The notes below the pieces were generated by a model that ran no database searches, had not been told where the DNA came from, and saw only the letters and a program-made list of their open reading frames with translations. Below, in pieces: positions 20,941 through 44,802 of a stretch of DNA of 64,000 nucleotides. This DNA is from Spirochaetota bacterium (GTDB taxonomy: Bacteria; Spirochaetota; Brachyspiria; Brachyspirales; JACRPF01). Both the position numbers and the translations under genes were made by a program. The stretch's first letter is position 1. Every line of letters begins with the position of its first letter. The stretch spans positions 186,001 to 250,000 of the forward strand of contig JACRPF010000021.1 in assembly GCA_016214035.1 (NCBI GenBank). Direction: 5' to 3'.

Positions 20941-21801
20941 CTATCTCCCCTCGTCATCATTCTGCCCGGCGCATTCATTACGATAGTATGCAGGAGACAT
21001 GTTTTCATGCTGTTTAAACAACCGTGAGAAGTAATACTGATCGGTAAACCCTACCGCGCGCGCGATCGACTTGATCGAATGATCCGTCGAGAGAAGCTGT
21101 TCCTTCGCCGCGGCAAGCTTCATCCGTAAAAAATACTGCTGCGGCGGATACCCGGTACGCTGCTTAAATATCTTCCGCATGTTCTCAAATCCGACATTAT
21201 TCGCAGTGCAGTACGTGCGAAAATCAAAATATAATTCCCCAATCTGTTTACGCATCATGCGCACGATGTGCGTAATCTCGCGATCCTCAGTCCGGGAGAG
21301 AACAGGACCGTGCTGGATAAGCAATTCCTGAAGTATCTGCAAAATACCCTGGGATGCATATTCCATATACCGGTCATTCGGGCGTCCGAGAGCATGCCAC
21401 ACGTCATTACATAGTGTTTCAATCCTGGCTGCATTACGGATAACGATTACCGGCTGCGAAGGATTCAGCAGATGGTCATCGTAATAGCGGCGGGGTATGT
21501 TACCGTCAAATCTAAAATAGAACGTGCGTGCTGATTTCCCTTTATAGGTTCCGTATCGATGCCATATGCCCGGGAATGTAAAAAACGCCGCCGGAGCCGC
21601 AAGAACACGCTCCCGGGTAAGCGATGTCTCATAAAAGTTTTCACCGCGCAGCAAAATGACCATTTGATAAAAGGGCAATGTCCGTCGCCAATGAACGCCT
21701 TCCATGCCGTGCATGGTCTGGCGGCCGATTGATACGGGACGTATTCCCATCTTTTCACATAGCGTATTCGTGCCGGGAAATGCATAGCGCCGTAAACTCA
21801 T
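20941..21801 (-). CDS. AraC-family regulator, divergent from MFS transporter
   Basis: The 286-aa protein has a cupin-like N-terminal ligand domain (MHGMEGVHWRRTLPFYQMVILLRG, then AAPAAFFTFPGIWHRYGTY; listed in parts) and a C-terminal double helix-turn-helix (FENMRKIFKQRTGYPPQQYF and IKSIARAVGFTDQYYFSRLF). AGGA is 8 nt before the ATG and an extended -10 (TGGTATAGT, 21830-21835) lies about 30 nt upstream, so unlike most AraC genes here it has a normal leader. It probably controls the divergent MFS-BNR pair. Confidence 0.88.
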   Translation of the reverse strand: MSLRRYAFPGTNTLCEKMGIRPVSIGRQTMHGMEGVHWRRTLPFYQMVILLRGENFYETSLTRERVLAAPAAFFTFPGIWHRYGTYKGKSARTFYFRFDGNIPRRYYDDHLLNPSQPVIVIRNAARIETLCNDVWHALGRPNDRYMEYASQGILQILQELLIQHGPVLSRTEDREITHIVRMMRKQIGELYFDFRTYCTANNVGFENMRKIFKQRTGYPPQQYFLRMKLAAAKEQLLSTDHSIKSIARAVGFTDQYYFSRLFKQHENMSPAYYRNECAGQNDDEGR

Positions 21802-21831: not shown

Positions 21832-21868
21832 TATACCACGGAATCCATCATTTTACCATCGACTCCAT
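21832..21868. repeat. 20-bp-spaced direct repeats between AraC and MFS genes, candidate operator
   Basis: The segment TATACCACGGAATCCAT (21832-21848) recurs as TTTACCATCGACTCCAT (21852-21868), 13 of 17 bases equal. A weaker third copy may start near 21873. The first copy overlaps the -10 box of the AraC gene, so the protein could repress itself and activate the transporter gene. Confidence 0.5.
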
Positions 21869-21968
21869 TGTCTTCCATACTATTCCCGTTATCTTTGATA
21901 TGACAAACAGCACAAGGAGATGGCCCTGTGACAAAGACATCGCACAAACGAAACGGGAATTCCGGCAA

Positions 21969-24648: not shown

Positions 24649-25491
24649 TCATATCCGTTCCAATCCCCGTTTCCCGTTGCCACGGCGCATACGATATACC
24701 GAAGGTGTGACCCCGGCTTGACGGCGGAACATCCGTTCGAACGACGCGTAGTCGCGGTAGCCCACCATGTGCGCAATCTCGGCGAGCGTGAGTTCCCCCT
24801 CAGCGATAAGGCGTTTGGCCACGGCAACGCGCCGGCTGATGAGGCAGGCGTGCAGACCCATACCCTTCTCGCGGACAAACATCTTCGAAAAATAGGTGCG
24901 CTCCAGCCCCACATGAGATGCGATGTCAGCCGTCGTCAGATCGTCATAATAATGCTCGTCGATGTATGCCGATGCATCGGCAACGCGCCGGTTCACCGAT
25001 GGTTCGGGGATGCCGCCGCCCGCCGACAGAGCCGCGGTGATGCGCGCGCGTATGAGATGAAAATAACCGAGCGCTGTCTGCGATGCGCCCGGCGCATGAC
25101 GCCGGAATGCAGTGCTGACGTCTGCAATCCAGCGGGACAACTCTGACGCGGCAATTCCGTGAACAACCTGCCGGCCGGGAACGATGCCGCATTCGGAGAG
25201 AAGCGTCCTCGCCTGCGGGCCGTCAAAACCAAGCCAGACATATTCCCATGGCGTTGTACGTGATGCGCGGTACCAGTGCCGCTGAAACGGAAATACCACA
25301 AAAATACTGCCTGCGGCAAGTTCATGTTCTGCGTCCCCGGGCGCAAAGGTGCCGCTGCCTTTCATGACCACGTGCATGAGATAATGATTGCGAAGCGTAT
25401 CATAGCGATGCGACGGACGGCATTTCATATGGCCGCTGAAAAGAATACGCAATTCGCCTGATGATGTGTCGTGGCTGTAGAATTCGCTCAT
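24649..25491 (-). CDS. AraC-family regulator, divergent from beta-helix protein
   Basis: The 280-aa protein has a cupin-like sensor domain (GSGTFAPGDAEHELAAGSIF) and an AraC DNA-binding domain (TTADIASHVGLERTYFSKMF and LAEIAHMVGYRDYASFERMF; PSVYRMRR at the end). The ATG at 25491 is only 6 nt from a TATACT box, with no Shine-Dalgarno, so the mRNA should be leaderless. Exact 21-bp-spaced repeats lie in the shared upstream region. It probably senses a glycan breakdown product and controls the divergent secreted beta-helix gene. Confidence 0.88.
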   Translation of the reverse strand: MSEFYSHDTSSGELRILFSGHMKCRPSHRYDTLRNHYLMHVVMKGSGTFAPGDAEHELAAGSIFVVFPFQRHWYRASRTTPWEYVWLGFDGPQARTLLSECGIVPGRQVVHGIAASELSRWIADVSTAFRRHAPGASQTALGYFHLIRARITAALSAGGGIPEPSVNRRVADASAYIDEHYYDDLTTADIASHVGLERTYFSKMFVREKGMGLHACLISRRVAVAKRLIAEGELTLAEIAHMVGYRDYASFERMFRRQAGVTPSVYRMRRGNGKRGLERI

Positions 25492-25503: not shown

Positions 25504-25516
25504 CCGTTATTTTTAA

Positions 25517-25547
25517 AAAACAACAGAATGCAATGTCAAAACAACAG
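25517..25547. repeat. Exact 21-bp-spaced direct repeats, candidate AraC-type operator
   Basis: AAAACAACAG occurs at 25517-25526 and again at 25538-25547, ten of ten bases identical and exactly two helical turns apart. The second copy ends 7 bp before the -35 box of the divergent beta-helix gene; the first covers the -35 position of the AraC gene. Confidence 0.65.
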
Positions 25548-25554
25548 CCGGCTA

Positions 25555-25583
25555 TTGACAATTGCCGTTGAAACGCCTATGGT
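25555..25583 (+). promoter_or_regulatory. Promoter of the beta-helix gene at 25618
   Basis: TTGACA (25555-25560), 17 bp, TATGGT (25578-25583). Leader of about 28 nt with AGGAG 5 nt before the ATG. Confidence 0.65.
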
Positions 25584-25617
25584 ATCGGAAGATGATAATT
25601 GACTGACAGGAGTCCCG

Positions 25618-27924
25618 ATGACCATGCGAACACTGTTTGTAGCACTATTGCTGAACACATTGATGATATTTGGAGCATCCATGACAGACACAATAATATC
25701 CGTTGCCGCATACGGCGCAAAGGGCGACGGCATTACCGATGACGGCCCCGCGATACAGCGGGCACTCGCCGCGGTATCGAGCAACGGCGGCAATGCGCGT
25801 ATCGTCTTCGAAAAAAAGACCTATCGTATCGGGAAACTTTCAAACGGCACGCTGCTCGATCTGCGCAGTCTGCATGATGTGCGGATCGACGGTAACGGCG
25901 CCGTATTCCTCAACGACCCGAACAACAATCTCGTGGCGCTGTCCCGCTGCACGAATGTATCGGTCGGCGGGTTTACGCTCGAATGCGATCCGCTCTCGTT
26001 CTCGCAGGGCACCATCATCGCGGTGAACGCGGATGAAGGCACGTTCGATGTGGAGCTGCATCGCGGCTATCTCAATTGGGCCGAGGCGCTCCGCGAAAAA
26101 CGGATCGCGGGTGTGAGCATCGGCATGATAATGCAGTCGGATGCGCCGCTCAGAAAAAAGACGCCCAACGCGGGCGACTTCGTGCGCCTCGAGTCTTCGG
26201 TCACGACAGCGGCCGGCATGGTGCGCGTGACGCTCCCCGAAACTCAGCGTAAACAGCTCATCGACACCGCCCCCGGCGACCGTTTCGTGGTGACGTTCTA
26301 CTACGGCGGGCAGGGCGCCAATTTTTCGATGATTTCATGTCTTTCGTGCGAGTTTCACGACATCACGGTCTATTCCGCGAAATTCGGGATGACCTTCGCG
26401 GTATCGAAAAGCCTCGACCGGGCGGTACTCAGACGCATCGTCATCAAACGCAAGCCCGGCACCGACCGTCTTCTCGCGACGCCCAAGGACGGCATGCACT
26501 GCAAGGAGAATCGCGTGGGGCCGCTCATCGAGGACTGCTGGTTCGAGGGACTCCTCGACGACAGCATCAACGTGAGCGTCTGCCCGTACTGGGTGAAGGA
26601 GATCATCGACGAACGCACCGTTATGGCGAATGCAGGCCCGCCGCTCGTCGGTGACCGTATCATGGCCTATAATCCGGGTCGCGAGGATCTGGGATACTAC
26701 CGCGTGGTTGCGGTGGAGCCGTACCAGAAACCGGGCAAGCGATCGCTCTGGCAGAAGATAACGTTCGACAAACCCGTCGTCGATTTCGACATACAGCCGT
26801 CCGACAACGATTTTCCCGGCGGCCCTGAAAAACTGAAATGCACGGGGCTGTATAATCTTGACGCCTGCGGGAGCGGTTACATCGTGCGCAACTGCACGTT
26901 CAAAGAGCAGCGGCGCTTCGCCATACTCGGACGGCCCTCGGGAACCATCGAGAACAATCTGATGGAATCCACCGGCGGCTCAGCGATGCACCTGGGCAAC
27001 GAGATAGGCAGCTTCTATGAGGGGCCGATGCCGCAGAACCTCGTGATTCGCGGAAACACCGTACGGAACGTTCTTTCGCATGCCATTGTGGTCTTCAGCA
27101 GCACCATGCTCCGCGAGCCGCTTGCGCACACGATACTTATCGAAAGCAACAGTATCGAGTCGCTCTACGGCAACGCACTACGCGTAAGCTGCGCGAGCAA
27201 TGTGCGCATCACCGGCAACCGCATTACCGTGAACGAAAAAACGCCGCTGGACGCCGCCGCGGTGCATCTTGATAATTGCCGCGCGGTGTCAATGGACGCG
27301 AACGGCATCACCGATCCGCGCACCGTCGGCGCAGCCGTTACGGGAAGTGATACGCGCGAACAGGATATGCGGAAGGGCGAGAATAAGTTCACACTCGCCG
27401 GCGGCACATCGGCTTTTGCACTTGAGCCGGATCCGCCCGCGGGGCTCATCATGCCGAAGAAGCCGCGCTATCTCGCCGTGCAGGGCTCCGGGCTGGAGGA
27501 AATTCCGTTCGCCAAAAGTCCCTACCGGCAGGTATTCACCTTCAGAGGCAGTGTCACGCGCGGTAGCGAATCGGTGGCCGCATACGAGGTGCATCCGCCG
27601 TTCGCAAAGGAGATAACCTCCGGCTCGCTCTTTTTCGGTGATCGATTCGATGTCGCGGACGAGACGGCTCTCAGATTCTATGCCGCGAAGATGAACGCAC
27701 AGGGCGACGGCGTTATCGTTAAACTTGCGTTCCGCGCCTCCGAGTCCGAGCGCTGGAAGGAAGTGTTTTCGCAGAAAATCACCGAAGAGACATGGCGGCA
27801 GTTCGAAGTTGATATTACGCCATGGCAGGAAAAGACCGTGTTCTACCGATTCGAGGTGAACAGCGGAGCGAACACTGCGTTCGACAATGCAGTTGTCGGC
27901 GGTGTTCAAAAGCTCAGGAAATAA
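25618..27924 (+). CDS. Secreted right-handed beta-helix protein (pectate-lyase-3-like) with C-terminal jelly-roll
   Basis: The 768-aa product has a signal peptide (residues 1-22) and the N-terminal motif AYGAKGDGITDDGPAIQRAL common to GH28-like and pectate-lyase-3 beta-helix proteins. The helix coils run to about residue 620 (ENNLMESTGGSAMHLGNEIG, RITGNRITVN), followed by a probable carbohydrate-binding jelly-roll (about 640-765). It is likely exported to act on a polysaccharide; no catalytic residues of a defined family could be assigned. It is the natural target of the divergent AraC regulator. Confidence 0.8.
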   Translation: MTMRTLFVALLLNTLMIFGASMTDTIISVAAYGAKGDGITDDGPAIQRALAAVSSNGGNARIVFEKKTYRIGKLSNGTLLDLRSLHDVRIDGNGAVFLNDPNNNLVALSRCTNVSVGGFTLECDPLSFSQGTIIAVNADEGTFDVELHRGYLNWAEALREKRIAGVSIGMIMQSDAPLRKKTPNAGDFVRLESSVTTAAGMVRVTLPETQRKQLIDTAPGDRFVVTFYYGGQGANFSMISCLSCEFHDITVYSAKFGMTFAVSKSLDRAVLRRIVIKRKPGTDRLLATPKDGMHCKENRVGPLIEDCWFEGLLDDSINVSVCPYWVKEIIDERTVMANAGPPLVGDRIMAYNPGREDLGYYRVVAVEPYQKPGKRSLWQKITFDKPVVDFDIQPSDNDFPGGPEKLKCTGLYNLDACGSGYIVRNCTFKEQRRFAILGRPSGTIENNLMESTGGSAMHLGNEIGSFYEGPMPQNLVIRGNTVRNVLSHAIVVFSSTMLREPLAHTILIESNSIESLYGNALRVSCASNVRITGNRITVNEKTPLDAAAVHLDNCRAVSMDANGITDPRTVGAAVTGSDTREQDMRKGENKFTLAGGTSAFALEPDPPAGLIMPKKPRYLAVQGSGLEEIPFAKSPYRQVFTFRGSVTRGSESVAAYEVHPPFAKEITSGSLFFGDRFDVADETALRFYAAKMNAQGDGVIVKLAFRASESERWKEVFSQKITEETWRQFEVDITPWQEKTVFYRFEVNSGANTAFDNAVVGGVQKLRK

Positions 27925-28150: not shown

Positions 28151-28585
28151 TATCGTGAATGGCGCGACGCGCGATGGAAGTCGCAGAACCGCGGTGAACA
28201 CGACAGCTTCGGGGGACCGTGGGGCATGGGGGTCTATGAGAACGAACTGTGGATAAATTCGGTGCGGCAGTATACCGATGCAACCGATGCAGTTGCGATG
28301 GGATGCCGGCCTATTGACGTTCATCCGGATCCAAACAACACCTATACGAATCAGAACCTCGCCGGTGTAGGATATACGCCGAAGCCGTATCAGATACCGT
28401 ACGGATGTCTTGTGCCGAAATCGGTGGACGGTCTGCTTACGACCGGCCGGTGCATATCAGCAACGCGTGAAGGTATGGGCTCGTCACGGGTTATGGCAAC
28501 CTGCATGGCGCTGGGAGAAGCCGCCGGAACCGCAGCAGCAATGGCAGCCCGTCAGAATCTGGAGCCGCGTCATGTGCGGCAGTGA
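28151..28585 (+). pseudogene. Remnant of an FAD-dependent oxidoreductase gene (C-terminal part)
   Basis: The frame is open from 28151 to the TGA at 28585 (about 144 codons; first ATG at 28226). It contains only the C-terminal part of the FAD_oxidored family: MGCRPIDVHPDPNN, IPYGCLVPKSVDGLLTTGRC and GSSRVMATCMALGEAAGTAA. The FAD-binding GxGxxG part is missing, so the fold cannot form. It abuts the dehydrogenase remnant on the other strand, implying a deletion or rearrangement joined two decaying genes. Intact relatives are at 39526-41727 and 60834 onward. Confidence 0.78.
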
Positions 28586-30291: not shown

Positions 30292-31287
30292 CTATCCCGC
30301 TATGGACGTCAGATCATTTTCCGTCAGCGCGTATTTGCGCGCTTTGCCGTTTGCCCAGGCCTCACAATCATCGGCGAGCATGGTGAGTATCCTCGCATAT
30401 GATTCGGGAATGCCGCCGGCACGATGCGGGGTCAGATAGGTATTGGGAAGCGTGCGGAATAGCGAATCCTCTTCCAGCGGCTCTTTGTCGAACACATCCA
30501 GCATGGCGATAAGATCATCGTGTTTCAGACGTTCGGCAAGTGCGGGCATATCGATGAGCATCGACCGCCCGACATTGACAAGAACGGCATGCTTCTGCAG
30601 TGCGGCTATCTGCTTCCTGCCCATCAGGTGTGCGGCCTCTCTCGAGTTGGCGGCGCAGAGCACTACAACCTCTGATTTTTTTATAAGCTCCATCAGCGGC
30701 ACCATACGGGCGCCGAATTTCGCTGCGACCGGTTCCGGCAGGAACGGGTCGAAGGTGCGTACCGTGCACTGAAACGGAGCCAGCAGTTCGGAAAGACGCT
30801 GACCGATGCCGCCGAAACCCACAATACCGACGGACCGTCCCGCAAGCTGACGCTCATGCGGATATTGGCACCAGCTCTCAGGACCCTGACGCATGGCGAT
30901 ATGATGCCTGCTTACCTGACGAAGTCCGTCGAGCATAAGTGCAAGAGCCATTTCAGCCACCGCAGGAGAATATCCCCGGCGGGCTTCCGATACTGCCAGC
31001 CCCCGGCGCAGTTCGGCTTCGGCCATCGTGCGTATATTATTGATATGCCCGATAAATTGAAGCCGCTTGGCTTTCGCGAGCAATTCGTCATGCAATGTCG
31101 GATACCACCACATGATGACGGCGTCAGACCATATAAGGTCGTCCTCGATCTCCTCCGGCGTTTTCCACGATCGTCTGCGGATTACCGCCAGGCGCGCGAG
31201 CCGCTGAAAATGACTTTTGAAAAGCGGATCCGTGTAAAAGCTTTCCGGTAAATTGAACAGCAACCGTATCTTTTTCTTTGTTGGCAT
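30292..31287 (-). CDS. D-2-hydroxyacid dehydrogenase family protein
   Basis: The 331-aa product has the NAD-binding Rossmann motif GRSVGIVGFGGIGQRLSEL, the signature VVVLCAANSREAAHLMG, VNVGRSMLIDMPAL, and the C-terminal LTPHRAGG (the catalytic His lies here). It reduces or oxidises a 2-hydroxy acid with NAD(P). GGAG lies 6 nt before the ATG. It follows the GH5 gene by 49 bp on the same strand, so it is probably the third gene of the GH27-GH5 operon and may process a sugar-acid product (inference). A decayed paralogue lies at 27931-28145. Confidence 0.88.
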   Translation of the reverse strand: MPTKKKIRLLFNLPESFYTDPLFKSHFQRLARLAVIRRRSWKTPEEIEDDLIWSDAVIMWWYPTLHDELLAKAKRLQFIGHINNIRTMAEAELRRGLAVSEARRGYSPAVAEMALALMLDGLRQVSRHHIAMRQGPESWCQYPHERQLAGRSVGIVGFGGIGQRLSELLAPFQCTVRTFDPFLPEPVAAKFGARMVPLMELIKKSEVVVLCAANSREAAHLMGRKQIAALQKHAVLVNVGRSMLIDMPALAERLKHDDLIAMLDVFDKEPLEEDSLFRTLPNTYLTPHRAGGIPESYARILTMLADDCEAWANGKARKYALTENDLTSIAG

Positions 31288-32973: not shown

Positions 32974-34440
32974 TCATACCATGTACACCTTATACACTTT
33001 TGCGCAATGGGCATCAACACCCACCGGGAAATCAAAAACACCGAGGTCTTCTTTCCGCCAGAGATCACGCACCGGCGATGTTCTGTGTATGCCCAGTTTT
33101 GCAGCCGATTCAAGTTCCGGTGCAATGGCCGGCTGTGTACCGAGGTTGAAATAGGCTAGCGCATAATTACCGTCAGACAGCGGCTTGATCTGAATATCCC
33201 ATGAATCGTCACGGTAAATACTTGCGGCGGGTTTTCCCCATCTGTCCTGATTCACCGCTATTATCTCCTCATTGCAGAGAAGGCTCAAAACGAAATTGTC
33301 CCGCATCAACGCGGTATCGCAGTCGATCATGATGGGGCTCGGCCGCATCATCCAGCATGAGATATGTGCGATGAGCTCATTCCGTGTGAAACTTTTCCCG
33401 TCACGCGGCATGAAAGCGGTAAGACAGAGATCGAACCAGTGCCCGGGACCTATCACCGGGTTCCACTGCCCGGTGTTGTTGATGCCGTTGTGCAGGAACA
33501 ATTCCCAGAGCGGCCCCATATCCTTATTTGAGCGCCAGAGATTGGCAAGTTCTTTCACCCTGAATGCATCGCTGAATTCAACATCGGTAGTGATGCTGAA
33601 AACCATATCGCGCGGTGCATCCCTCAGTGCACGCGACATGCGTTCCGCGTTGACCATATCGGTGTAATTCCAGTCGTATTTGCAGTAATCAAATCCCCAT
33701 GCCGCCCATTGGCACACATCATCGTCCTCATGTTTTTCAATCCCGATGAACTTGTTCTGATTGAACATCCTGAAACGGGTATCCATCAGACCGGATGTCG
33801 TTCCGCATCCATCCGTGCCCCAGGGTACCGTATACGGTGCGGAATAAATACCCACTTTCAGGCCGAGTGCGTGGATGTGACTGCATAATGCGGCCATGTC
33901 CGGGAAACCGTCTTTCGGCACAATCGAGTTATAGGGCCCTCCGCGCTGTTTCGACTGCCATCCCGAATCCATGTTCACATACGAATAGCCTCTCGCCGCA
34001 AGACCGGTACTCACCATGCTTTCGGCGACAGCCCGTATCCTTGCGTCATCGATATCGCTCCGGAAACAGTTCCAGCTGTTCCATCCCATGGGCGGCGTCA
34101 GCGCGAGTTTATGCTCACCGATGATGATGGTAAATATTTTTGCGGATGTCCCGAGACTGTTCTCTGCATGGAGTGTTACCGCATATTCGCCCGGAACCAC
34201 CGCCCTGCCCTGTATCTGTCCGCGTACCGAATCAACGGCAAGTCCCGCGGGAAGGTTTTCCGCGGTAAAGCGCATCGGCCGTTCCCCGATTGCGGGTATG
34301 AGATACAGGAATTCTTTGCCGGGAGACGCTCCGTACACATCCGGGCCGTTGATCACCGGACGTCCCTGGTCCCACGGAAGTGCGGGCGCGGGTGCGGTTG
34401 CAAAATCAACGGTGCCGTTCTTTGCCGATGCAGTGCCCAC
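32974..34440 (-). CDS. GH27-family alpha-galactosidase-like enzyme
   Basis: The 488-aa protein has an N-terminal Ig-like module (about residues 25-108) and a GH27 barrel: TPPMGWNSWN, YVNMDSGWQ, nucleophile D256 in CKYDWNY and acid/base D307 in RSNKDMG. It should cleave alpha-galactosides or beta-L-arabinopyranosides. There is no signal peptide, so it appears cytoplasmic, whereas its operon partner GH5 is secreted. The GTG at 34440 was chosen for its GGGAG 6 nt upstream and position after the promoter. It is divergent from an AraC regulator. Confidence 0.9.
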   Translation of the reverse strand: MGTASAKNGTVDFATAPAPALPWDQGRPVINGPDVYGASPGKEFLYLIPAIGERPMRFTAENLPAGLAVDSVRGQIQGRAVVPGEYAVTLHAENSLGTSAKIFTIIIGEHKLALTPPMGWNSWNCFRSDIDDARIRAVAESMVSTGLAARGYSYVNMDSGWQSKQRGGPYNSIVPKDGFPDMAALCSHIHALGLKVGIYSAPYTVPWGTDGCGTTSGLMDTRFRMFNQNKFIGIEKHEDDDVCQWAAWGFDYCKYDWNYTDMVNAERMSRALRDAPRDMVFSITTDVEFSDAFRVKELANLWRSNKDMGPLWELFLHNGINNTGQWNPVIGPGHWFDLCLTAFMPRDGKSFTRNELIAHISCWMMRPSPIMIDCDTALMRDNFVLSLLCNEEIIAVNQDRWGKPAASIYRDDSWDIQIKPLSDGNYALAYFNLGTQPAIAPELESAAKLGIHRTSPVRDLWRKEDLGVFDFPVGVDAHCAKVYKVYMV

Positions 34441-34469: not shown

Positions 34470-34498
34470 AATATAGAAACACCGTCACCGCCGGTCAA
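34470..34498 (-). promoter_or_regulatory. Promoter of the GH27-GH5-dehydrogenase operon
   Basis: Minus-strand TTGACC (34493-34498), 17 bp, TATATT (34470-34475). Leader of about 24 nt. The nearest TATTGAT repeat (34507-34513) lies 8 bp upstream of its -35 box. Confidence 0.7.
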
Positions 34499-34501
34499 GG
34501 G

Positions 34502-34530
34502 TTGAATATTGATATTCTATGGTATATTAT
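34502..34530 (+). promoter_or_regulatory. Promoter of the AraC gene at 34540
   Basis: TTGAAT (34502-34507), 17 bp, TATTAT (34525-34530), then 9 nt to a GTG start with no Shine-Dalgarno, so the mRNA should have a leader of 0-3 nt. An alternative -10 TATATT (34523) would give a 15-bp spacer. Confidence 0.55.
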
Positions 34531-34534
34531 TGAT
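34507..34534. repeat. 21-bp-spaced TATTGAT direct repeats, candidate operator
   Basis: TATTGAT at 34507-34513 recurs at 34528-34534, exactly 21 bp apart. The repeats span the AraC gene's own promoter and lie just upstream of the divergent GH27 -35 box. The sequence is AT-rich, so chance is harder to exclude than at 25517. Confidence 0.45.
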
Positions 34535-34539
34535 GTATC

Positions 34540-35400
34540 GTGAAAACAATCAAATGGGTTCAATTCCCGCCGGCAAGCGGATGCACGCGGATTCCGCAGA
34601 TCATCTATGCCGGAATGGAAACGGTGAACACCCCCTCATACCGGTGGGACGGCATGAAACGAAAAAGCCGCCCGCGCTGCGTATTCCAATACACCATAGA
34701 AGGCTCGGGCCGTCTGGACTACCATGGAAAGACGTATGATATCCCCCGCGGCAGTGCGTTCATCTACGATCTGAGCACCCCCGACAGCTGCTACTATTAC
34801 CCTCCCGGTGCAGTAAAGGGCTGGACATTCATCTACTGCGCATTTTCCAATTTCGAAGATGCGGTTGAACAGCTGAATGCCCGGCATGGTCCGGTGTACG
34901 ATTTCGGAGAGCAGAGCATCGTCGTAGAACGGCTGTACGCCATGATGGAAGCGCAGGAAAAACCCGGAGCACCGGCTGGCCGCAACAGTTTTAACGTCTG
35001 TGCCGCAATCGTCGGCGAGATGTGCCGGCTTGCAGACGCACCGAAGAACGGCGGTCTCGGCGCACTCGCCGTGAAAGCCCTCGCGTATATACATGAAAAA
35101 AGGCGGGAACACTTCTCGCTCGAGGATTTGTCGCATACCCTCGGTGTAAGTCCCGAGCATCTGTGCCGCGAGTTTAAAAAACAACTGCACTGCAGCCCGA
35201 AGCAGTATCACGAGAAACTGCGGATAACGGCCGTCTGCGAACGGCTTTTCAGCGGCGGCACGATACGCGAAGTGACTAAGGAGTTCGGCTTCACGGACAG
35301 CTCCTATTTCACCAAATATTTCAAGAAGAAGTGTTCCATTACTCCGGCTCAGTTCCGGAAGAACCGCATACTGCCGATGCACGACATAGTACCGGATTAG
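34540..35400 (+). CDS. AraC-family regulator, divergent from GH27 operon
   Basis: The 286-aa protein has a cupin-type sensor (CVFQYTIEGSGRLDYHGKTY, PRGSAFIYDLSTPDSCYYYP) and an AraC DNA-binding domain (SLEDLSHTLGVSPEHLCREF, IREVTKEFGFTDSSYFTKYF, PAQFRKN). It starts at GTG 34540 without a Shine-Dalgarno, close behind its promoter. It is the obvious candidate activator of the divergent alpha-galactosidase operon, with a galactoside or its breakdown product as inducer (inference). Confidence 0.88.
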   Translation: MKTIKWVQFPPASGCTRIPQIIYAGMETVNTPSYRWDGMKRKSRPRCVFQYTIEGSGRLDYHGKTYDIPRGSAFIYDLSTPDSCYYYPPGAVKGWTFIYCAFSNFEDAVEQLNARHGPVYDFGEQSIVVERLYAMMEAQEKPGAPAGRNSFNVCAAIVGEMCRLADAPKNGGLGALAVKALAYIHEKRREHFSLEDLSHTLGVSPEHLCREFKKQLHCSPKQYHEKLRITAVCERLFSGGTIREVTKEFGFTDSSYFTKYFKKKCSITPAQFRKNRILPMHDIVPD

Positions 35401-35615: not shown

Positions 35616-36464
35616 TCATGGCGCTCCCGGCGATTGACGTTTCGCGCCGGATGATCGATGCGTCTGCAGGTATTCGCTCGGTGATACGCCGAATATCTTC
35701 TTGAACCGTTTCGAGAACGTGAACTGGTCCGGGAAATTGAGAATCGATGCCACCTCGCGCACGGTTTTGAAATCACCGAGCATCTCGCGGGCGCGCTCCA
35801 TCGTCATCCGATCGATGTAGCGTTTCGGGGTGACGCCCATGGTGCTGCGGAAATACCGAATAAAATAGCTTCCGGTCATGCACGCAATCTCCGCGAGCGC
35901 GTTATTCGAAAGCCGCTCGTTCGCATGCCAGGCGATATGATCGAGCACCGGCCGCAGACGGTCGTAATCGCGGCCTTCCGGTTCATCGCCGCCTCGATGC
36001 AGCCTGAGCGCCATCATGCGGCTTATCAGCATGGTGAGCGCGCCGCGGAGCGCAAGACCGGCCATAGCCCCCCCCTCGCGATTGCGCATGAACGCATTGG
36101 AATAGACGGTGCGTTCCGCGCGTACGGTTGCCGCGGCATAACGGCCGGCGAGCGCTGCGGGGGTTACCAGCGAGCGGTTCCCACCGAGCACGATATCGAA
36201 ATGCATGTACTGGAACGCCGCTTCGTCCGATACGTTACCGGCGGCATACGGTGTGTTCGGCGGTATCAGAAATATGTCACCCTCGCGGACCGTTTCCGCG
36301 CGCCTATTCATGACGATGCGCACCGACCCATGCGTTATAACCCAGAGATCGAACGCCGCATGAGCGCGCTCTTCACGCCACCCCTTGGGATGATGCGGAT
36401 ACCCGCAATAGAGGGGCCGCACATCGACGGCTATGGAAATCTGGCTGATTGTATGCGGTCTCAT
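35616..36464 (-). CDS. AraC-family regulator, divergent from beta-helix gene
   Basis: The 282-aa protein has an N-terminal cupin sensor (HAAFDLWVITHGSVRIVMN, GDIFLIPPNTPYAAG) and a C-terminal AraC domain (LSNNALAEIACMTGSYFIRYF, VREVASILNFPDQFTFSKRF, SPSEYLQTHR). The ATG at 36464 begins 6 nt after a TATACT box with no Shine-Dalgarno; the ATG at 36482 would lie inside the promoter. It probably regulates the divergent beta-helix gene through the TTCTGACAT repeats at 36541. Confidence 0.88.
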   Translation of the reverse strand: MRPHTISQISIAVDVRPLYCGYPHHPKGWREERAHAAFDLWVITHGSVRIVMNRRAETVREGDIFLIPPNTPYAAGNVSDEAAFQYMHFDIVLGGNRSLVTPAALAGRYAAATVRAERTVYSNAFMRNREGGAMAGLALRGALTMLISRMMALRLHRGGDEPEGRDYDRLRPVLDHIAWHANERLSNNALAEIACMTGSYFIRYFRSTMGVTPKRYIDRMTMERAREMLGDFKTVREVASILNFPDQFTFSKRFKKIFGVSPSEYLQTHRSSGAKRQSPGAP

Positions 36465-36499: not shown

Positions 36500-36540
36500 A
36501 CTGGATACATGCATGCGTGCGCTCTGTGACGGCAAACCAT

Positions 36541-36570
36541 TTCTGACATCACAATTGCTCATTCTGACAT
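36541..36570. repeat. Exact 21-bp-spaced TTCTGACAT direct repeats, candidate AraC-type operator
   Basis: TTCTGACAT at 36541-36549 recurs at 36562-36570 (the flanking base and ACA also match: TTCTGACATNACA). The downstream copy covers the -35 position relative to a -10-like TATACA at 36591-36596 for the beta-helix gene, which has no -35 hexamer of its own. This is the geometry of an AraC-activated promoter. Confidence 0.65.
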
Positions 36571-36677
36571 AACACTTCGCGGCTGAACGGTATACACTAT
36601 ATCTATGATGCGCAGCGCAGATTGATTTCTCAAATACCTGCGGCCTGTGCAAGGGCCATAGAGCTGCGGAGGTTACC

Positions 36678-38426
36678 ATGACAGTTCACGCGAAGGTGCT
36701 CTTTGTGCTGCTGCTCATACTTCCTGCGGCGTACTCCGCGACGTATTATGTCAGCAGTACGGGAAACGATGCGGCCCCCGGCACTATGGCTGCGCCGTTC
36801 AGAAGCATAGCAAAAGTGAACACACTGACCCTGCGAAGCGGCGATGCCGTTTATTTCCGGGGCGGCGACACGTTCAACGGCAGCATCAGCATCGACAGCA
36901 GCGATATCGGGAGCGCGGCAACACCCATCATCATCGGATCATTTGCATCGGGCAGAGCCGCAATAAACGGCGGGAACGGCAAAGGCATCACAGTGTTCGA
37001 TACGGTCGGCGTCAGGATAACCAATATCACGGTCATCGGGAACGGCAGAAAGACGGGGAACACCGAGGACGGCATCATCGTCAATAATTCCCGCGCAGTC
37101 GATGTTGTGCACTGCGAAGTGTACGGCTTTCAGCACTCGGGGGTGCGCCTCTACGACAGCGATGCTATTCGCCTGTACGGCGTCTATTCGCACGACAACG
37201 GATTTGCAGGCATCTATTCCATCAACCCATCGATGACGGTGCCGAGCGGATGGAACAGCGGACTCTACATTGGATACTGCATCACCGCGAACAATCCCGG
37301 CGACCCGACCGTGCTTAATAATCACAGCGGGAACGGCATCGTGATATCATGCTTCAGGGATGTTCTCATCGAATACTGCGAGTCATATACGAACGGATGG
37401 GATATGCCGTGGACGGGCAACGGCCCCGTGGGGATATGGACGTTCTGTGTGGACCGCGCGACGATACAGTACTGCATATCGCATGACAACCGCACCGGAC
37501 CATACTCGACGAAGGACGGCGGCGGTTTTGATCTTGACGGCGGTACGAGGAATTCCGTCATCCAATACTGCCTGTCGTACAACAATGACGGGACCGGATA
37601 CGGCATCTTCCAGTATTCGGGCGCACCGGATTTCTTCAGCAACACGATACGGTATTGCGTGGGGTATAACGACGGGAAAAAGGTCGGCGCGGGCGGGATA
37701 CGCGTATGGAACGGCCCGAACACCGTCAGCACCTTTCATGATGTCACGGTGCACAACAATACGATATACAACACGAAAAGCGCCGCGGTCTATTTCATCA
37801 ATCCTATCGGCAACGGAAGATTCATCAATAACATCTTCATAACGAAAGGCGCGCCGTTCATCGGCACATCAGCGACCGCTGCTTCGCATACGCTGCGGTA
37901 CAACAATTACTGGGACCTCGACGGACGGTTCGAGCAGGACGGCTATTCGAATTTCAGTGAATGGGCGCTCGCAAAGAACGTGGAGCAGCATGCCGGCAGT
38001 ATAGTTGGAAGGTTCGGCGATCCGAAACTGCAGTGCATCGCGGTTCCGCCCACGGTCACCGATCCAGCGCTGCTTTCGGCCTATACGAACGCCATTCCGC
38101 TTTCAGTCTCGCCGGTCATCGATGCCGGATGCGACCTCCTGTCGATGTTCGGTCTGCCGATGGGGTCACGAGACCTCCTCGGCAATGCTGTACCCAGAAA
38201 CCGCGTTTTCGATATCGGCGCGTGTGAGTATATATCATCGTTGCCTCCCGCGGCGCCCGTTGTATCCGGAGTGCCTGCAAGCTTCACTACGAACGCTCCA
38301 TTCACCGTCATGCTCGATGTGGACAGGAATTTCGGCTACTGGTCGACGAACGGCAGCGCATTCACGCAGTTCACCGCTGCCGGCACATCGATTACTATCG
38401 ATCGAACAACGACACTCCGCTGCTAA
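36678..38426 (+). CDS. Secreted right-handed beta-helix protein, frame interrupted by in-frame TAA
   Basis: The 582-codon frame has a signal peptide (MTVHAKVLFVLLLILPAAYS), YYVSSTGNDAAPGTMAAPFRS as in many secreted beta-helix proteins, and helix coils to about residue 510 (SGVRLYDSDAIRLYGVYSHD, DDVTVHNNTIYN-like turns). It then enters an Ig-like repeat (VPASFTTNAPFTVMLDVD) and stops at TAA 38424-38426 within that repeat. GGAGG is 5 nt before the ATG. The same frame continues without another stop to 39002. It is likely regulated by the divergent AraC gene. Substrate unknown. Confidence 0.8.
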   Translation: MTVHAKVLFVLLLILPAAYSATYYVSSTGNDAAPGTMAAPFRSIAKVNTLTLRSGDAVYFRGGDTFNGSISIDSSDIGSAATPIIIGSFASGRAAINGGNGKGITVFDTVGVRITNITVIGNGRKTGNTEDGIIVNNSRAVDVVHCEVYGFQHSGVRLYDSDAIRLYGVYSHDNGFAGIYSINPSMTVPSGWNSGLYIGYCITANNPGDPTVLNNHSGNGIVISCFRDVLIEYCESYTNGWDMPWTGNGPVGIWTFCVDRATIQYCISHDNRTGPYSTKDGGGFDLDGGTRNSVIQYCLSYNNDGTGYGIFQYSGAPDFFSNTIRYCVGYNDGKKVGAGGIRVWNGPNTVSTFHDVTVHNNTIYNTKSAAVYFINPIGNGRFINNIFITKGAPFIGTSATAASHTLRYNNYWDLDGRFEQDGYSNFSEWALAKNVEQHAGSIVGRFGDPKLQCIAVPPTVTDPALLSAYTNAIPLSVSPVIDAGCDLLSMFGLPMGSRDLLGNAVPRNRVFDIGACEYISSLPPAAPVVSGVPASFTTNAPFTVMLDVDRNFGYWSTNGSAFTQFTAAGTSITIDRTTTLRC

Positions 38427-41727: not shown

Positions 41728-41836
41728 ATATCGATCGGCAGCGGGAACGGAGCATATCACCGCGGCAATCGCCGCATGATTATCGTTGTCAACAGAAATC
41801 ATGTCGGATTAGCACAAATCCATGTCGCTTTTTTCC

Positions 41837-41865
41837 AAGACAGTATCGATGATATGATCTATACT
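41837..41865 (+). promoter_or_regulatory. Candidate promoter of the CBM-beta-helix gene
   Basis: AAGACA (41837-41842), 17 bp, TATACT (41860-41865); the -35 box matches in four of six positions. GGGAG lies 8 nt before the ATG at 41896. Confidence 0.55.
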
Positions 41866-41895: not shown

Positions 41896-44802
41896 ATGCT
41901 TCGCATCATCATCCTTATCATCGCTATGGCAATGTCCGGATTCATACTCTTCGGCAATATCTCGCTTACCCTGGTAAATCCCGGTTTCGAAAACGGTCTC
42001 ACCGGCTGGGATGCCTCTAAGGATAACAGCATGAGCACGGCGGCAGCTGAAGCCGCACAGACGGGAAAGCTCGGCCTCCGCGTCACCGACAGTTCCGAGA
42101 CGGCTGGCTCCGATCTTGCCGGACAGCGTTTCGCCTGCCAGCCAGGAAAAGAGTACCGTGTCTCATGCAAATCCCGCATCGTCAGCGGCAAGGGCATCGG
42201 CATCTATATCAAGTTCGCCGATGCCTCGGGAAAAGGTATCGACGAAAGTAAATATATGCGCGAAGTCCCCGCATCGGCTGAATGGCAGACATTCTCCTAT
42301 ACGGCAACGGCACCCGCGGGAACCGCAACCGCATGCATCTATATCCATTCCTATATGAAGGCTGTGGTGACGGCGGACTTCGACGAGTTCATCTTCGAGG
42401 AGATCGGCGGTGACGGCGCACGGGCTTCACTCGATACACCGGCTCCGGCCCCTGCCGCGCAGACGGTGAAGGCAAAGACACTTGACCTGCCGAACGCCGG
42501 ATTCGAAAGCGCTTCCGAAGGATGGAGCAACGATGGCGATAACGGCATGAGCTCGATAATCCCCGCCGCGGCGCGCACGGGAAAACTCGGGCTTCGAATC
42601 ACCGACGAATCAAAGACCGCGGGATCGTCGCTCTACTCGCAGCGCATTCCCGTTACCGCCGGAAAGGAATACAAGGTCTCGTTTTTCACACGCATGATCT
42701 ACGGCGGGGGCTGCGGCCTTTACATACAGTTCTTTGATGCCGACGGCACGCAGATAAAGGTCGACCCGCAGGATATGATCGGCCTTGCATCTTCGCCGCA
42801 ATGGAAGAAATGCGAGGGCGTTGTATCCGTACCGTCGAACGCGAAAACGATGGGACTCTGGTTTCACTCGTACGGACATGCTATCATCACGCAGGACGTT
42901 GATGATATCACCATCGAGGAATATATTCAGAAAACGACACGCCCCTGGGAACCGCTCTACAAGGTGAAACCCTCAGAAAAGTCGCGTCTCACCGCGGCCG
43001 ACATCATCGGTCCCGACGGTATCGTGTATCCTGACTTCCGCTGGGCGGGCGTACCGGGCGGCATTCCCGCAGTACCGGTAATTGTGGACCTGACGGGAAA
43101 AGTATCACCTGAGACCGATATCTCCGAAACGCTCGAACGCGAGGCGACCGCACTCGGTAAACGCGGCGGCGGCGCACTCCTCATCCCCGAGGGCACCTTT
43201 TATCTCGACAATATCGTCATCATCACCGCCAACAATGTCGTCATACGCGGCGCGGGACAGGATAAAACGAGGCTCATCTTCCGCTACGCGCTTCCCTACG
43301 GCAGCGTGATATTCTCGCGGGTGAAGGCGGGCGAACCGTTCGGCGTGGTCGATATACACGCGCAGCCCAAGGATCTCAAGGCGCTCGTCATAGAATGCGA
43401 AGGCAAGGTGATACGCCGCGCGGCATATCACGCGCACTGGGGCAACACCTTCAGTACGCGTGCCGGCAGAAGCGAATTCCTTTCCAAAGTGGGCGCGGGA
43501 CTTCACAAGGTGATCGGCCGCGCGGAATATGCCAACGGCGAAAAATTCGAGAACAGTATCGAGCTCATGGTATCCGCGGATCCGGTGGAACAGGTGCTCC
43601 CCTCGCAGAGCGGTGCGATAGCATTTGCCGGCAAGCGCATTGAGACAAGATACAAGCTTGTAAAGGACGGAAAACGCGGCGATACGAATCTCACGCTCGA
43701 GGATGCATCGGCGTTCAAACCCGGCGACCGGCTCTATCTCAACGCGCCCACGTCACCGCGCTGGAATGAAATACTCCACAACGCCAACACCTGGTTCGGC
43801 AGCCGCATGAACCAGTACGAGATAACCGCCGTCACCGGAAATATCGTCCATTTCCGGCAGGCCCTCCGCATCGAATTCCCCATCATCGACGGCGCGTATG
43901 TGCAGAAAATAGAACCGATAATCAGCTGCGGGATCGAGGACTTCTATCTCGAACAGAAGGAGAACATCTGGATCAACGGCGTCACCTTCTCGGGGAGCTG
44001 GGGATGCTGGGCAAAGGGCGTGACCATGCGTATGGCCGGCAAGCATCCGATATACTTTGACAGTTCGAAATTCGGCGAGCTGCGCGACTGCGTGTTCGAC
44101 GACGCCTGGTTCAAGGGCGGCGGCGGCACCGCGTACGGCGGCGTTGAATTCTCATTCGACTGCCTCATCGAAAACCTCTCCACGACCAATCTCCGTCACG
44201 CACCCGACTTTAACTGGGCATGCTCGGGAAACGTGGTGCGCAACAGCACCTTCATCAACAGCGACGGACAATGGCACTCGGGCTGGTGCAACGAGAATCT
44301 CCTTGAAAACCTCGTGATAAAGTCAGCCATCGGCAACGGCGGCTACGGCTTCGGGCTTTTCTCCACCGCACCCGAGGACGACGCACACGGCCCAATCGGA
44401 CCGCGCAATGTGATCTACAACTGCGATGTTGCGTCGCCCAAGGACGGCCTTATACTCAACGGCATGAACGAGAACTGGCTTGTGCTTCACAACCGCTTCG
44501 TCGTGGAAAAAGGACGCGGTATTCTTGCACGTATGGCGAGCTTCGACCACATCATCCGGGGCAATATCTTCTGCCTCAAAAACGCGCAGAACCCGGCGAT
44601 ATTTCTCAAGGATGCAGACTGTATCGGCGTTGAGGTCATCGATAATACCTGTTACGGCGGCGAGGGACCCATCGTCGGCGGCAAGGCGAAACCGGAACGC
44701 GATGAGGGGAACTCGGTACTCCCGTTCGAGGATGCCCCGCGACCGAAGCCCGCGGTGCCGTCGATTTATGAATGGCAGATAAAAAACTATCCGCTGAAAT
44801 AG
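41896..44802 (+). CDS. Secreted protein with two CBM-like domains and a right-handed beta-helix
   Basis: The 968-aa protein has a signal peptide (residues 1-20), two tandem carbohydrate-binding-like sandwiches (about 25-168 and 198-345) that are clear internal duplicates (PGFENGLTGW.., TGKLGLRVTDSSETAGS against AGFESASEGW, TGKLGLRITDESKTAGS), then a beta-helix domain (about 375-930; GGGALLIPEGTFYLDNIVII, CDVASPKDGLILNGMN). Such proteins are usually polysaccharide lyases or epimerases, but no catalytic residues could be assigned. It follows the FAD oxidoreductase and may act on the same polymer. Confidence 0.8.
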   Translation: MLRIIILIIAMAMSGFILFGNISLTLVNPGFENGLTGWDASKDNSMSTAAAEAAQTGKLGLRVTDSSETAGSDLAGQRFACQPGKEYRVSCKSRIVSGKGIGIYIKFADASGKGIDESKYMREVPASAEWQTFSYTATAPAGTATACIYIHSYMKAVVTADFDEFIFEEIGGDGARASLDTPAPAPAAQTVKAKTLDLPNAGFESASEGWSNDGDNGMSSIIPAAARTGKLGLRITDESKTAGSSLYSQRIPVTAGKEYKVSFFTRMIYGGGCGLYIQFFDADGTQIKVDPQDMIGLASSPQWKKCEGVVSVPSNAKTMGLWFHSYGHAIITQDVDDITIEEYIQKTTRPWEPLYKVKPSEKSRLTAADIIGPDGIVYPDFRWAGVPGGIPAVPVIVDLTGKVSPETDISETLEREATALGKRGGGALLIPEGTFYLDNIVIITANNVVIRGAGQDKTRLIFRYALPYGSVIFSRVKAGEPFGVVDIHAQPKDLKALVIECEGKVIRRAAYHAHWGNTFSTRAGRSEFLSKVGAGLHKVIGRAEYANGEKFENSIELMVSADPVEQVLPSQSGAIAFAGKRIETRYKLVKDGKRGDTNLTLEDASAFKPGDRLYLNAPTSPRWNEILHNANTWFGSRMNQYEITAVTGNIVHFRQALRIEFPIIDGAYVQKIEPIISCGIEDFYLEQKENIWINGVTFSGSWGCWAKGVTMRMAGKHPIYFDSSKFGELRDCVFDDAWFKGGGGTAYGGVEFSFDCLIENLSTTNLRHAPDFNWACSGNVVRNSTFINSDGQWHSGWCNENLLENLVIKSAIGNGGYGFGLFSTAPEDDAHGPIGPRNVIYNCDVASPKDGLILNGMNENWLVLHNRFVVEKGRGILARMASFDHIIRGNIFCLKNAQNPAIFLKDADCIGVEVIDNTCYGGEGPIVGGKAKPERDEGNSVLPFEDAPRPKPAVPSIYEWQIKNYPLK

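Follow-up and report, generated by a model that had tools for sequence, protein, structure and literature searches.

The window, by which we mean the whole stretch of 64,000 nucleotides that was analysed, contains a gap of 126 bp between two divergent genes, and the repeat studied here sits in this gap. On the minus strand (24649..25491) lies the gene of a regulator of 280 amino acids, in which Pfam recognises a C-terminal double helix-turn-helix (HTH_18, 2.7e-19, 69.7 bits for a cut-off of 33.6; HTH_AraC, 47.9 bits for a cut-off of 26.6) and, over residues 23-140, the cupin-like sensing and dimerisation domain AraC_binding (1.9e-15, 57.2 bits for a cut-off of 21.1). Among solved structures, the regulator matches 2k9s (the DNA-binding domain of E. 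coli AraC) and, over its sensing part, 6nwh (BgaR). Judged by its domains it is a member of the AraC/XylS family, as it has both the double helix-turn-helix and the N-terminal sensing domain. On the plus strand (25618..27924) lies the target gene, preceded by a likely ribosome-binding site AGGAG (25608..25612, 5 nt ahead of the ATG at 25618), which encodes a beta-helix protein of 768 amino acids. This protein matches Beta_helix (7e-12) and Pect-lyase_RHGA_epim (5.8e-08) in Pfam, and in the PDB 8pvs, "Alpha-1,3-galactosidase B" (E 1.5e-13, residues 20-568) and 9beh (E 3.9e-09). An Asp-Asp pair, which serves in GH110 catalysis, aligns between it and a solved GH110 structure. Hence the description "secreted GH110-like alpha-galactosidase" fits the protein better than that of a generic beta-helix, the activity being putative and the secretion predicted from the look of the N-terminus, which is hydrophobic and signal-like. 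Just downstream, between 27931 and 28585, one finds gene remnants, among them the C-terminus of an FAD-dependent oxidoreductase (28151-28585, plus strand) and broken pieces which, compared by eye, resemble the C-terminus of the 2-hydroxyacid dehydrogenase encoded at 30292-31287.

Two identical copies of the 10-mer AAAACAACAG occupy 25517-25526 and 25538-25547, at an offset of exactly 21 bp, just as an earlier sequence-only reading had claimed. The identity extends beyond this core: 25517-25534 and 25538-25555 agree at 14 of 18 bases, with the consensus AAAACAACAG-N3-GC-N-AT, and the two half-sites so defined, the distal AAAACAACAGAATGCAAT (25517..25534, plus strand, holding the first copy) and the promoter-proximal AAAACAACAGCCGGCTAT (25538..25555, plus strand, holding the second), are 3 bp apart. 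We compared the repeat with 20,000 shuffles of the 126-bp intergenic region preserving its dinucleotides. With the spacing fixed at 21, an identity of at least 14/18 was reached with a frequency of 0.0003 and a run of 10 bases with a frequency of 0.00015; with the spacing left free, in 3000 shuffles, the frequencies were 0.008 for at least 14/18 (spacings 12-70) and 0.0013 for the 10-base run (spacings 11-70). The twin repeat is a real feature, ordinary in kind: 14/18 at 21 bp is the layout of a tandem operator, that is, a direct repeat of half-sites of about 17 bp with a period of about 21 bp.

A consensus scan predicts for the target gene a sigma70-type promoter scoring 10/12 (25555..25583, plus strand), made of TTGACA (25555-25560), a 17-bp spacer and TATGGT (25578-25583). 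Its -35 begins at 25555, where the proximal half-site ends (position -1 relative to the end of the repeat). The second copy had been described as lying 7 bp upstream of this -35, which holds for the 10-base core, while the full half-site reaches the -35 itself; with respect to this consensus-predicted promoter, the proximal half-site thus has the class II placement, adjoining or overlapping the -35 of the target. On the other strand, the best promoter candidate for the AraC gene (25510..25539, minus strand) consists of TTGACA (25539-25534), 18 bp and TAAAAA (25515-25510). It is weak, being absent from the standard scan and found only in a relaxed listing. The first copy had been said to sit at that gene's -35, which is not the case, as the minus-strand TTGACA (25539-25534) falls essentially between the copies and the first copy fills the spacer of this putative promoter.

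We then considered whether a spacing of 21 bp is special near AraC genes. The genomes G000, G001 and G040 each have at least 150 HTH_18 matches (from 225-257 candidates) in about 5.1-5.4 Mb, while for this AraC protein most of the other genomes searched among the relatives give 0-3 matches; a literature search on AraC expansion in this lineage found no paper. We used 150 genes of the home genome (225 candidates, giving at least 150 HTH_18 matches), 90 of G001 (at least 150 from 257) and 30 of G040 (at least 150 from 225). The gaps were delimited by a codon-usage model, and direct repeats were counted in them for all spacings between 8 and 70. A minimum length of 60 bases after a padding of 20 bases was required of each gap, which kept 129/150, 74/90 and 27/30 respectively; the home set includes one gene, L182, whose HTH region contains a stop. 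Settings were varied from 11 to 14 matches over 16-18 bases, with several definitions of the region. Over one series of 18 settings, spacing 21 always came first, alone or tied; it shared this place with 42 in some of them and, at a single match apiece, with 23 and 30 in one case.

In the pooled AraC-divergent gaps of the three genomes, at a threshold of at least 12/18, spacing 21 is the commonest (18 of 138 gaps, for a mean of 3.22 at the other spacings and a maximum among these of 11, at spacing 20). When the repeat under study is left out, 17 of 137 gaps remain, for a mean of 3.18. The bias is strongest in the divergent gaps of the home genome (12/76, where the other spacings average 1.60 and reach at most 5), whose codirectional gaps have none at this threshold and spacing (0/34). 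Taken alone, the divergent gaps of G001 have a smaller excess (4/42 for a mean of 1.00), and those of G040 have no peak at 21 (2/20, with 3 at each of the spacings 10 and 20). AraC coding sequence, taken in the same size and number, has no excess at 21 (5/150 for a mean of 4.32). The regions 300-560 bp upstream of AraC genes do have a lesser excess at 21 (14/150), equalled at spacing 48 (14), which suggests that coding periodicity is at work there. Most AraC-divergent gaps do not have any 21-bp repeat at 12/18 or better. Identical 5-mers lying 21 bp apart in AraC-divergent gaps number 110, for a mean of 36.75, and the commonest is TCCAT, which occurs in the second box of the half-site of E. 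coli AraC (PMC4514859). This box is absent from the repeat under study and recurs at other sites.

The position of the repeats relative to promoters is biased as well. The -35 of a sigma70-like promoter of the target gene starts between -5 and +2 of the repeat end for 9 of the 18 pooled repeats at spacing 21, against 8 of 131 repeats at control spacings, and the repeat under study, at -1, is one of these nine. On the strand of the AraC gene, the same phasing is found for 1 of 18 only. As for overlap with a promoter on the AraC strand, it concerns 10/18 of the 21-bp repeats and 75/131 of the control repeats, so that there is no excess. The earlier reading had proposed that one operator serves both activation and autorepression. 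Its first half gains from the spacing, from the phasing and from the other sites of the window, which all speak for a placement suited to activation; its second half gains nothing from the overlap counts. Autorepression would be compatible with the position of the repeat and is possible, the pooled data being neutral on this point.

How often does the motif occur elsewhere? The lone 10-mer has 16 occurrences in the 5.2-Mb genome, two of them at the repeat, for 8 occurrences of a reversed-pattern control, whereas only one pair of 10-mers separated by 9-13 bases is found, and the double half-site, with its 24 specified bases, also has a single occurrence even when up to 3 mismatches are allowed. 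It had been suggested that a random distribution of the motif over the genome, with no link to this regulator, would speak against the operator. This is what we observe for the lone 10-mer, found at 14 other places and hence no marker of a regulon, and it is not what we observe for the pair, which is unique. A multi-gene regulon with a shared operator gains no support, since double sites, whether exact or degenerate (up to 3 mismatches), are found at the repeat only. With no second such double site in the genome, the repeat would be that of a private local switch.

A scan of the called gaps of the window yielded four repeats that reach 12/18 or more at 21 bp, all upstream of genes for carbohydrate-active or beta-helix proteins. 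Besides the repeat under study, these are a site of 13/18 at 34495..34533 (minus strand), between an AraC gene (34540-35400, plus strand) and an alpha-galactosidase (Melibiase_2) gene (32974-34440, minus strand), where the -35, TTGACC, begins 4 bases before the repeat ends; a site of 14/18 at 36539..36577 (plus strand), between an AraC gene (35616-36464, minus strand) and a beta-helix gene (36678-38426, plus strand); and a site of 12/18 at 41800..41838 (plus strand), upstream of a CBM_4_9/beta-helix gene (41896-44802, plus strand). The last has a CATGTCG core and a -35, AAGACA, which begins 2 bases before the repeat ends and lies 17 bp from TATACT, and no AraC gene adjoins it. Three of the four sites have a promoter of 9-10/12 whose -35 starts at -1 to -4. 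The exception is the site at 36539, with a weak promoter at offset -2 (7/12) and an alternative at +5 which scores 8; its core, TTCTGACAT, is a different sequence, and its AraC gene, missing from the 150 listed, was identified as such after the scan. Repeats are found in 2 of the 5 AraC-linked gaps of the window and in 2 of the 24 others, or in 3/6 and 1/23 if the gene at 35616 is counted as AraC. This count does not include the gap of the AraC gene at 20941-21801, which the gene caller did not separate. Between that gene and a divergent MFS transporter gene, at 21850-21903, we noticed several imperfect copies spaced by 20-21 bp (13/18 at spacing 20, 12/18 at spacing 21).

The arrangement resembles that of well-known systems. 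In E. coli, araC is divergent from its target gene. The araI1-araI2 operator of that species is a direct repeat of the half-sites TAGC-N7-TCCATA and TAGC-N7-ACCTGA (PMC4514859), and the proximal half-site of pBAD lies at -35 to -51, overlapping the -35 (PMC11434276). Our locus shares with it the divergent AraC gene and target, the direct repeat and the overlap of the proximal half-site with the -35; it differs by its core, AAAACAACAG-N3-GCNAT and not TAGC-N7-TCCATA, and the -35 overlap is here of 1 bp by the chosen boundary of the half-site. Some other sites in these genomes do have a half-site like TAGC-N7-TCCAT. The two-box half-sites of XylS at Pm (TGCA-N6-GGNTA-N6) and MekR (CACC-N5-CTTCAA-N6) have spacings which sum to 21 bp (PMC4514859); they and those of MtlR at PmtlE are directly repeated as ours are, in other hosts and with other sequences. 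Direct-repeat operators with 21 bp are reported for the rhamnose regulators of several groups (Bacillales, Bacteroides, Enterococcus; PMC3870299), and the motifs predicted for the hybrid two-component systems (HTCS) of Bacteroides are tandem sites 21 bp apart on average (PMC3878776), but these were inferred from regulons across genomes, while ours is a local site with a single target. At PrhaBAD the site of RhaS shares 4 bp with the -35, and at PrhaT it stops 1 bp short of it on the upstream side (PMC9429829), the same range as the -4 to +2 found here; RhaS, however, binds an inverted repeat (PMC3870299), and ours is a direct one. Tandem sites of AraC type upstream of Caldicellulosiruptor promoters were read as activator sites (PMC8579813). 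By its sequence layout, our repeat belongs to a documented form of AraC-family operator, with two-box half-sites at 21 bp, and a repeat of this period whose end falls at the target -35 has the geometry seen in the activator sites araI1-I2 and XylS.

From the repeat itself, the spacing statistics, the -35 phasing, the uniqueness of the pair and the protein families, we infer with good confidence that the repeat is the operator of the dimer of the divergent, adjacent AraC-family regulator, most likely activating the GH110-like beta-helix gene. As 21 bp make two helical turns, the two half-sites would lie on the same face of the DNA, and the two DNA-binding domains of the dimer, flexibly linked, would sit on it side by side; AraC proteins are described as fitting direct repeats by means of the flexible linker which joins their dimerisation and DNA-binding domains (PMC9723621). 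With the proximal half-site at the -35, the bound regulator could touch sigma region 4 and the alpha C-terminal domain of RNA polymerase, and binding of a sugar to the sensing domain would lead to activation of the beta-helix gene. The inducing sugar would probably be released by the GH110-like enzyme from its substrate, or be related to this substrate.

Alternatively, the same dimer might act as a repressor at the promoter of the beta-helix gene, and perhaps of its own gene too, until the sugar relieves the repression. A perfect TTGACA is a stronger -35 than is usual for activator-dependent promoters, and with its 17-bp spacer the target promoter could fire unaided; moreover, the repeat also lies within the putative promoter of the AraC gene. 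MtlR, whose operator has a period of 22 and a weak proximal half-site, offers a further argument, as strengthening that half-site made the promoter constitutive (PMC4514859). Two strong identical half-sites being constitutive in that case, a near-perfect repeat may not act as a classic inducible site, and the identical cores of our half-sites, unlike the weak proximal half-site of MtlR, leave room for repression. Against this, half of the pooled repeats (9/18) end at the -35, upstream of the core promoter, as an activator site would, and the -10 of the target is poor (TATGGT, 4/6). We consider repression unlikely. Slightly less likely still is the binding of another regulator to the repeat, either one of the paralogues in a genome whose 225 candidates give 150 or more HTH_18 matches, or an unrelated factor. 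The repeat at 41800, which has no AraC neighbour, is in keeping with such a regulator acting from elsewhere, but the enrichment of 21-bp repeats in AraC-divergent gaps, and their absence from the 34 codirectional gaps of the home genome, point to local control. Finally, a chance similarity within an A-rich intergenic stretch, which 0.8% of the shuffles produce as 14/18 at any spacing in a genome of many gaps, and whose 10-mer is present 16 times, is very improbable, since three separate expectations (a spacing of 21, an AraC-divergent gap, an end at the -35) are met jointly.

Beyond activation of the one beta-helix gene, we would give about even chances to a more general statement: that AraC regulators have multiplied in this lineage, to 150 or more in 5.2 Mb, and that many of them would have a private class II operator, 21 bp in period and touching the -35, with half-sites differing from one regulator to the next. 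If this is true, the pairs of regulators and operators form a natural map of the specificity of the AraC DNA-binding domain, the repeat under study and its regulator being one pair (AAAACAACAG-N3-GCNAT), and a set from which the rules of AraC recognition could be learned. The direct repeat of 21 bp ending at the target -35 is statistically visible from sequence alone in pooled AraC-rich genomes of one phylum. From this geometry, operators can be predicted for many of the switches of glycan utilisation in lineages without genetics, and this readability across an AraC-expanded lineage is of more use than the site itself.

Conservation can be followed at some of these sites. For the regulator under study, the nearest AraC relatives (33% identical, on C12 of its own genome; 36%, on C142 of G001) are not divergent from a neighbour and are without a similar repeat, and a scan of genome contigs, which gave 20 loci of 24-35% identity, mostly over the HTH only, yielded no footprint of the repeat. 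In a sister pair of orthologous AraC genes from two genera (L118 of the own genome and L306 of G001, 83% identical), both half-sites are nearly unchanged while the leader has diverged. In a more distant pair, L203 and L269, whose AraC genes are 44% identical, one half-site is kept exactly. The half-site found at these last two loci (G000 C6:13565 and G001 C35:12151), ATAGCAATATCGTCCAT, is near the E. coli AraC half-site TAGC-N7-TCCATA.
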